Below the pieces are notes generated by a model. It was not told the DNA's origin. It ran no database searches and was given only the letters and a program-made list of their open reading frames with translations. Shown here one piece after another: positions 33,678 through 40,569 of a stretch of DNA of 64,000 nucleotides (positions are counted from its first letter, which is position 1; each line of letters starts with the position of its first letter). A program made the position numbers and the translations under genes. The stretch is from Halobellus sp. LT62 (GTDB lineage Archaea; Halobacteriota; Halobacteria; Halobacteriales; Haloferacaceae), in contig NZ_JAYEZO010000001.1 in assembly GCF_037031285.1 (NCBI RefSeq), positions 434,001-498,000 of the forward strand, in the 5' to 3' direction.

Positions 33678-34331
33678 ATGAGTAAGATCACGTTCCGTGC
33701 CGACGACGACCTCGTCGAGCGGTTGGAGGCGCTCGACACCTCCAAGAGCGAGGCGATGCGCGACGCGCTGCGCATATACCTCGACGGCGCGGACCGTGAC
33801 ATCGACCGACAGAGCCGGACGGACGAGGGTAGCCACGACGCCGAGCGGGGCGCTCCCGCGGACGAGGAGAGCGGTTCCGTTGACGAGTTCATCCGCGAGC
33901 GGGTCGACGAGCTCGTCGCCGACCGCCTCGACGACCTGATCGCCGGCCATCTCCCGCCAGAGCGTCCGGCCCGCGATTTCAACGTCAACGTGCAACTCGA
34001 CGGCGTACGAGCGGCCCACTCTGTGCCAGCCGAGGTGTCGGCCCGGGAGGCGTCGACCAACGAAGCGTCGGCCACTGAGGCGGCTGGACGGTCGACGGGA
34101 CCCGAGGAACGTAAGACACAGACGGATGAGGTGTCACAGGACGCCGGCTCGAAACCCTGTGAGAAGTGCGGAGAAAACGTCAGTGCCGATCACGTTTACT
34201 GCCCGAATTGTGGAGAGAAAGCGTCTCACCGGGTGTTCTGCGAGTGCGGTGACGAACTCAGATCCGACTGGGCGTTCTGCCCCGGCTGCGGCCGTCGGAC
34301 ATCCGCTGCAGACGTGCTCGAACGCTCGTAA
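33678..34331 (+). CDS. cdrL: CdrL-like RHH transcription factor with double zinc ribbon
   Basis: A 217-residue protein. The N-terminal ribbon-helix-helix (residues 1-40) reads [19 protein letters not shown] then [14 protein letters not shown]. An acidic linker follows, with a helical segment [16 protein letters not shown]. The C-terminus holds [19 protein letters not shown] and [18 protein letters not shown], a paired zinc ribbon. In Halobacterium the long RHH protein CdrL lies next to cdrS-ftsZ2 and regulates it. The same arrangement here supports the name. Confidence 0.85.
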
Positions 34332-34372: not shown

Positions 34373-34528
34373 GTCTTACAATCGGCGTTACATTTATAAG
34401 GTGTCGCTCTGTGGTAACTGCCGCGTAAGACGGTCGTCTTACAGCCCGCTCCGGGACCGGGAAACGCCCCGCTGTCTCCCGATTTCGGGCGTGTATGACG
34501 TTCGCACGGGGTGTGCGCGCCGTCTTAC
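34373..34528 (+). promoter_or_regulatory. cdrS-ftsZ2 promoter region with GTCTTAC operator-like array
   Basis: A TATA-like ACATTTATAAG lies at 34390-34400. GTCTTAC occurs at 34373, 34436 and 34522 and its complement GTAAGAC at 34425. The middle pair forms an 18-bp inverted repeat with a 4-bp spacer (34425-34442), sitting where transcription would start. GTTAC (34387-34391) and GTAAC (34414-34418) also flank the TATA box symmetrically. If this TATA is used, the cdrS leader is about 120 nt. Confidence 0.5.
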
Positions 34529-34542
34529 CGGGGGAATGCAAC

Positions 34543-34722
34543 ATGGAACGTGTGACACTACGGATTCCGAAACAGCAGATCGAGGAGGTTGAACAGATGG
34601 TCGAGACCGGGGAGTTTCCGAATCGCTCGGAGGCGATTCGGTCGGCTGTTCGCGAGATGATCAACGAACAGCAGGCCGACGGACGCGAGTCGCCGACCAA
34701 ACACACGTGGGCCAAGGTGTAA
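34543..34722 (+). CDS. cdrS: CdrS ribbon-helix-helix cell-division regulator
   Basis: A 59-residue stand-alone RHH protein: [20 protein letters not shown], then [20 protein letters not shown]. In Halobacterium salinarum and Haloferax, CdrS is cotranscribed with ftsZ2 and controls cell division. Here ftsZ2 begins 3 bp after the cdrS stop. The in-frame upstream ATG (34495) would add an Arg-rich stretch not seen in the family. Confidence 0.93.
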
Positions 34723-39744: not shown

Positions 39745-40569
39745 TCAGGACCGGTCGTCGGGGCGGCGGCGGACCCACTCGTCGCTCCCGTATTTCTCCT
39801 CGACGCGGATTCGCGCGCGTTCTAACTCGTCGTCGGTCCACGTTCCGACCTCGGCGTCCGCCCAGTCCGCAAGCGACTCCTCGACCGCCGCGACCATCTC
39901 CTCGCGGGACGCGTCGACGAGCTCGTCGACGCCCACCACTCGATCACCGAATTGCGCTGGCGACACGTCGTGCCCGGAAAAGACGTCGAGATGCTCGTCG
40001 GCGCGGACGGCGTACGTAAGCGAACCGTGCTGGACAACGGCGTCGCGGCGGCGATACTGGGCATTTCCACTGATCTTGCGCCCCTCGGCGACGACGTCGT
40101 GTGCGGGGTGCAGCTTCCGGAGGTAACACGCGGGCCGCCAGATCTCCGGAACCGACTCGCTCACGTAGTCAGCGTCGATTCCCAACTTGCCGAACGCATC
40201 AAGTATCGGTTCACAGAGCAGGTGGTAAGCGTCCATCAGATCTCCCGGCAGTTCGGACTTCGGCGCGGTGATCGAGTAGGAGACGTCCCCGTCGATGTCG
40301 TGGTAGATGCCTCCGCCCCCCGTCTGTCGGCGGGTTACCGAGACACCCTCGGCGGCGCAGTGCTCCCAGTCGACGGTGTCGGGATCCTGTCCGTATCCCA
40401 GTGAGAGCGTACTCGGCGACCACCGGTACACGCGGACCGTGCGCGGTCCACCGGCAGCGGCCGTTTCGGCGGCGATTTCGTCGAGCGCCATCTGCATCGG
40501 TCCCTCGCGGGCCTCCTCGCGGATCAGCCGCCATTCGCGATCGGCGAGCGGCCCCGGATTCGTGGTCAT
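39745..40569 (-). CDS. lipoate/biotin protein ligase family (LplA/LipB-type)
   Basis: A 274-residue BPL/LplA/LipB family enzyme transferring lipoyl or octanoyl groups to carrier domains. Markers are [50 protein letters not shown] (span), and the Lys in [11 protein letters not shown] lipoate ligase or an octanoyltransferase are both possible. It is divergent from rio2. Confidence 0.88.

Follow-up and report, generated by a model that had tools for sequence, protein, structure and literature searches.

A conserved array of GTCTTAC heptads at the haloarchaeal cdrS-ftsZ2 promoter, a candidate operator for the RHH regulator CdrL

The cdrS-ftsZ2 promoter of Halobellus sp. LT62 carries an array of GTCTTAC heptads that recurs, essentially once per genome, throughout the Halobacteria, and sequence comparison points to an ancient, dedicated DNA operator of this promoter with the consensus GTC-W-TAC. 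The reading preferred here, at a probability of roughly 0.6, is that the array is the operator of cdrS-ftsZ2, bound by one RHH dimer per heptad, with CdrL as the main reader in most Halobacteria and repression as the outcome. The heptads look like landing sites of a regulator that sets the amount of division protein, and the finding bears on how archaea set the level of FtsZ. The array, its position, its conservation and its near-uniqueness were determined here; promoter occupancy was taken from published papers. No report of the GTCTTAC 7-mer at the cdrS-ftsZ2 promoter was found in the literature searched, of which coverage was partial.

Sites and layout at the Halobellus promoter

The window is the whole 64 kb stretch of DNA that was analyzed, and coordinates are window positions. 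Counts in the list refer to 138 distinct haloarchaeal cdrS upstream regions (210 bp each), which were also used for the copy counts below.

33678-34331, + strand: cdrL; Pfam RHH_1, CdrL_M and DZR above cut-off (RHH, CdrL middle region, double zinc ribbon)
34111-34117, - strand: heptad inside cdrL, codons CGT AAG AC.
34373-34379, + strand: site A, GTCTTAC, just 5' of the TATA box; exact in 85/138 regions, orientation by lineage
34393-34399, + strand: TTTATAA, the TATA-like box for cdrS-ftsZ2; conservation of 83-100% at each of its first five positions across the 138 regions
34425-34431, - strand: site B, GTAAGAC, where transcription is expected to start; exact in 136/138 regions
34436-34442, + strand: site C, GTCTTAC, inverted partner of B with an N4 spacer; exact in 130/138 regions
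34493-34499, - strand: site D, GTATGAC (= GTCATAC), central-base variant; slot exact in 93/138 regions, GTCATAC in 5
34522-34528, + strand: site E, GTCTTAC directly 5' of the ribosome-binding site; exact in 134/138 regions
34530-34535, + strand: probable Shine-Dalgarno sequence of cdrS, GGGGGA; 34532-34536 conserved at 86-96%
34543-34722, + strand: cdrS, short RHH regulator; Pfam RHH_1, 33.7 bits; 59 aa
34726-35925, + strand: ftsZ2, tubulin/FtsZ division protein of the cdrS operon; Pfam Tubulin and FtsZ_C; 3 bp after cdrS

Exact GTCTTAC was counted on both strands of the window and occurs five times only. The four copies that the initial annotation had placed at 34373-34528 were recovered at 34373 (+), 34425 (-), 34436 (+) and 34522 (+), as was the fifth that it had placed within cdrL, on the - strand. 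Five copies are ordinary against 3.5 expected; the unusual part is their clustering. The whole 3.23 Mb genome holds 72 copies, and nowhere but at the cdrS promoter do several fall within 200 bp. Site D had been overlooked; most relatives have an exact GTAAGAC in the same slot. Isolated GTCATAC heptads were also seen at 40565 and 48850, probably by chance. The gene names cdrL, cdrS and ftsZ2 assigned earlier agree with the Pfam domains, and two other species of Halobellus share CdrS at 100% identity.

Sites B and C (34425-34442) read GTAAGAC-GGTC-GTCTTAC, 11 bp from start to start. Because the pair begins 32 bp after the start of TTTATAA, it should cover the transcription start, as predicted from the TATA-like box. 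The inverted repeat previously described over the start site is thus present here as B/C, but it does not hold as a general unit: spacer and orientation vary between lineages, which makes the single heptad the unit. The monocistronic cdrS mRNA is reported as ~250 nt (PMC8406309, Fig. 2 legend), whereas a transcript starting where the TATA box predicts would measure ~300 nt (34422-34722); its leader is possibly processed.

The copy inside cdrL was examined by codon usage. A linker peptide, RKT, is encoded by CGTAAGAC (CGT-AAG-AC) at 43 of the 44 cdrL loci that have it, although CGT makes up about 19% of Arg codons in cdrL; the 37 cdrL loci without RKT lack the heptad. As judged from these codons, the copy at 34111 is probably held at the DNA level in about half of loci. 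A role as a roadblock or in looping would be a guess. Phasing with the array was rejected, the distance to site A being mostly 218-295 with no clear 10-11 bp pattern. In an automatic test cdrL was the intact neighbour of cdrS at 78/81 loci, and at only 2 of these 78 does a copy fall in the 150 bp before cdrL, so that autoregulation of cdrL through sites in its own promoter finds no support here.

Conservation across the Halobacteria

Absence of the 7-mers from related cdrS promoters had been named beforehand as a result that would refute the proposal; they proved decisively conserved. Each of 80 named haloarchaeal cdrS loci, picked by CdrS similarity and spanning Halobellus to Natrialba, Haloferax, Haladaptatus and Halorussus, carries 3-6 exact copies in the 260 bp 5' of cdrS. 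An even sample of 391 Halobacteria genomes, not chosen by CdrS similarity, was then searched for GTAAGAC-N3-6-GTCTTAC. The pair was present in 374; of these, 372 have a single copy and the other two have two, in both cases with one upstream of cdrS; a reversed control pattern was rare in the same genomes. In all 30 loci fetched from this search the pair lies 112-137 nt before cdrS, and every array locus examined lies directly 5' of cdrS. Among the 17 genomes without the standard pair, 14 carry a variant array (an N2 spacer, GTCATAC as C, GTGAGAC as B, or three direct heptads at 10-bp pitch), and the assemblies of the other 3 yielded no convincing cdrS. In the three genomes G000, G018 and G007 the only GTCTTAC cluster is that at the cdrS promoter.

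The 138 upstream regions contain 591 exact copies, compared with 3.3 in shuffled sequence. A chance origin of the array was rejected on this excess, on the 374/391 conservation and on its being the sole cluster in the genome. Heptad columns of the aligned regions average 92% for the commonest base, versus 54% outside. GTCTTAC is read in 578 slots; the most frequent departure from it, seen in 35 slots in either orientation, is a central T/A swap. Site D is altered in, or absent from, about 29% of regions. The B/C spacer is N4 in 112/138 regions and ranges from N2 to N6 overall, and the heptads are separated (B-C 11 bp, A-B 51-53 or 62-65, B-D 62-68). In nearly all Natrialbaceae, and as a conserved site in that family only, a GTCTGAC stands near -46 from the cdrS ATG, between D and E and beside the GTCTTAC array (L016, L021, L039-L048, L053, L059 and others).

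These alignments also bear on whether the repeats act as RNA, with leader hairpins formed by B/C, D/E or B/E controlling translation or stability of the cdrS-ftsZ2 mRNA. The presumed leader holds the complementary sites B, C, D and E; in the predicted fold B is paired with E, which stands right beside the ribosome-binding site, and post-transcriptional control of the operon has been proposed (PMC8303175). Site A, however, lies 5' of the TATA box, on the + strand in some families and the - strand in others; none of the 138 B/C pairs shows a compensatory change on both sides of a position; the central T/A swap would break pairing; some Halobellus have no B/C hairpin and carry direct heptads at 10-bp pitch instead; and the leader fold z-score is only -1.2. 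An RNA hairpin was rejected as the main explanation on the placement and orientation of A, the lack of compensatory changes, the central swap, the hairpin-free species and the z-score, and we consider it very improbable. The constancy of the GTCTTAC slots, with a central-base swap as their commonest variant, points to a DNA operator, GTC-W-TAC.

CdrL as the candidate reader

Genome G018 was matched to Hbt. salinarum by its bacteriorhodopsin, which is 100% identical to the protein of that species. G018 has the array at cdrS and no other GTCTTAC cluster. In this species the cdrS-ftsZ2 promoter was the only reproducible CdrL site by ChIP-seq, with occupancy resolved at the level of the region in 200-bp bins (PMC7439475). 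The promoter is the same one, and at region level the array lies where CdrL sits in vivo. It is also unique in the genome (in 372/374 genomes with the pair), as is the single CdrL peak. The text of PMC7439475 gives no motif, nor does it describe the heptads, their near-uniqueness, their conservation or the intragenic copy. CdrL is the best-supported reader of the array, although its contact with the heptads is one that we infer. The earlier proposal that CdrL and CdrS both bind here is thereby sustained for CdrL, by the published ChIP-seq together with the array in that species, and is less well supported for CdrS in Halobacteria. For CdrL the array supplies a candidate DNA element with base-pair precision, whose sites are open to mutation.

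Under the preferred reading, each GTC-W-TAC heptad would most likely take one RHH dimer, and in most Halobacteria CdrL, presumably in direct contact with the heptads, would be the main reader. Dimers would sit on A (5' of the TATA box), on B/C (over the start) and on D/E (in the leader up to the ribosome-binding site), and, once bound, would impede RNA polymerase as it loads or escapes, so that CdrL would most likely repress and meter cdrS-ftsZ2. Repression is favoured by this geometry, from 5' of the TATA box across the start site and into the leader. CdrL could also be an activator or act both ways; the published cdrL deletion carried second-site mutations (PMC7439475). Where CdrL is missing, CdrS may still read the array.

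Stoichiometry was considered by analogy with other RHH proteins. Omega (ParB of pSM19035) binds iterated 7-bp sites, 5'-WATCACW-3', in either orientation over the promoter of its own genes, one dimer per heptad (PMC9499535). The haloarchaeal promoters likewise hold several copies (3-5 exact) of one 7-bp site in mixed orientation (137/138 regions), and a quasi-palindromic GTC-W-TAC with a free A/T centre would fit one RHH dimer per heptad as in omega. The omega heptads differ in being bacterial and contiguous, whereas the GTCTTAC heptads are separated and of another sequence. The N2 to N6 range of the B/C spacer is a poor fit to one rigid dimer-of-dimers and so counts against the preferred reading. 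AmrZ, an RHH repressor/activator, reads short half-sites through alternating Lys/x/Arg strand residues and represses its own promoter; its half-sites are GGC, two per operator, and it is bacterial and has no wide array (PMC3325190).

CdrL as the sole reader is weakened by genomes that retain the array without it: the array is not confined to CdrL carriers. A CdrL profile search, with eight candidates scored per genome, found no convincing CdrL in 15/391 genomes. Three of these also lack a convincing cdrS, and the other 12 all keep B/C. Direct reading of six of the twelve loci showed a gene other than cdrL 5' of cdrS, with exact copies at B, C and E. The whole 2.09 Mb contig of genome G007, a complete chromosome, yielded no CdrL in a full local HMM search, and yet its sole GTCTTAC cluster is at the cdrS promoter. 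Absence was thus checked by single-sequence search, by profile search, by reading six loci and by HMM search of one chromosome. That twelve CdrL-less genomes keep the pair implies that CdrL is not the sole protein holding the sites under selection, unless every loss is recent. Decay of A and D in these genomes was rejected as proof that CdrL reads them, since D is also altered or missing in the above 29% or so of all regions. Three CdrL-less loci scanned for tRNAs (L240, L241 and L242) have a tRNA-Tyr 5' of cdrS in place of cdrL; loss there through an integration or excision event is possible.

A third DNA-binding protein might read the array and recruit CdrL indirectly. This would account both for retention without CdrL and for the flexible spacing. 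It has no candidate, however, the heptad differs by one base from those of the RHH neighbour CdrS at its published targets, and CdrL occupies this promoter only (PMC7439475). We regard a third protein as improbable.

CdrS-type sites and the origin of the array

In Hfx. volcanii, CdrS ChIP-seq gave a table of 18 sites that includes ftsZ1, dacZ and hisB, and from which the cdrS promoter is absent (PMC8406309). Seven other species of Haloferax have GTC[AG]GAC-N4-GTCTGAC at ftsZ1 and GTCAGAC at dacZ. A search for GTCNGAC-N4-GTCNGAC returned the Haloferax hisB promoter, an independent ChIP target, with GTC[AG]GAC-N4-GTCTGAC. The heptad of CdrS targets, GTCWGAC, is one base off that of the array. 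These CdrS operators resemble the array in their 7-bp heptads, their GTC half and, at ftsZ1 and hisB, their N4 inversion, which B/C shares in 112/138 regions. They differ in reading GTCWGAC rather than GTCWTAC, in having several targets per genome and in lying mostly 5' of promoters, as befits activation, where the GTCTTAC array extends over the start site. The predicted DNA-reading strand is R-x-T-x-R in all 138 CdrS proteins and K-x-T-x-R, without variation, in aligned CdrL. Residues of this strand contact DNA in other RHH proteins, for example AmrZ (PMC3325190).

Upstream regions of cdrS from outside the Halobacteria were also examined (L192-L208, L351-L358). In other classes of the phylum the cdrS-ftsZ loci are without cdrL, and exact GTCTTAC was found in none of 17 such loci. 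These CdrL-free archaea instead carry GTCWGAC heptads at the cdrS promoter, sometimes with GTCATAC in the same 11-bp register. Pairwise distances between heptads, at loci from eight families, are exact multiples of 11 bp in 42 of 44 cases and 12 in the other two. By their sequence and spacing these arrays look like an ancestral, helically phased operator for CdrS autoregulation.

CdrS itself may then read the haloarchaeal array, alone, in competition with CdrL or as heteromers, with GTC-W-TAC combining a CdrS-type half, GTC, with a different half, GTA. Autoregulation by CdrS is suggested indirectly by three lines: the CdrS-type arrays outside the Halobacteria, some of them with GTCATAC, the conserved Natrialbaceae GTCTGAC, and the array kept without CdrL. 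The constant place of the array directly upstream of cdrS is in keeping with it. Against direct reading by CdrS, its own promoter is missing from the Hfx. volcanii list, and GTCNGAC, the class to which its known GTCWGAC targets belong, occupies no array slot in 138 regions. Direct autoregulation through the array is accordingly judged unlikely, though less so than a third protein.

Because CdrL-free relatives carry phased GTCWGAC, the array may have begun as CdrS autoregulation and been re-specified in Halobacteria; on sequence grounds it probably descends from CdrS-autoregulated heptads through a one-base change in each. More specifically, and tentatively, at somewhat under even odds, the phased GTCWGAC array would have become GTCWTAC throughout in the ancestor of Halobacteria; control there would have passed to the paralogue or to a CdrS-CdrL heteromer, and CdrS would have retained GTCWGAC at its other targets. 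With such a hand-over the change of heptad would match the one-residue difference between the strands of CdrS and CdrL. CdrL-type and CdrS-type control are predicted to differ by a single base of the heptad (GTCTTAC to GTCTGAC). Haloarchaea that lost CdrL and non-Halobacteria relatives with a phased CdrS-type array offer natural experiments, and the wiring of an archaeal division circuit and its evolutionary rewiring become open to direct test, with Hfx. volcanii or Hbt. salinarum as the host.

Two further loci were recorded. Strain XH8 has a second cdrL-cdrS locus at a contig end (CP132292.1, L042), in which cdrL is apparently frameshifted and which may be an assembly duplicate. In Haloferax, GTCTGAC-N4-GTCNGAC lies between two divergent conserved hypothetical genes (L216, L220), possibly a further CdrS target.
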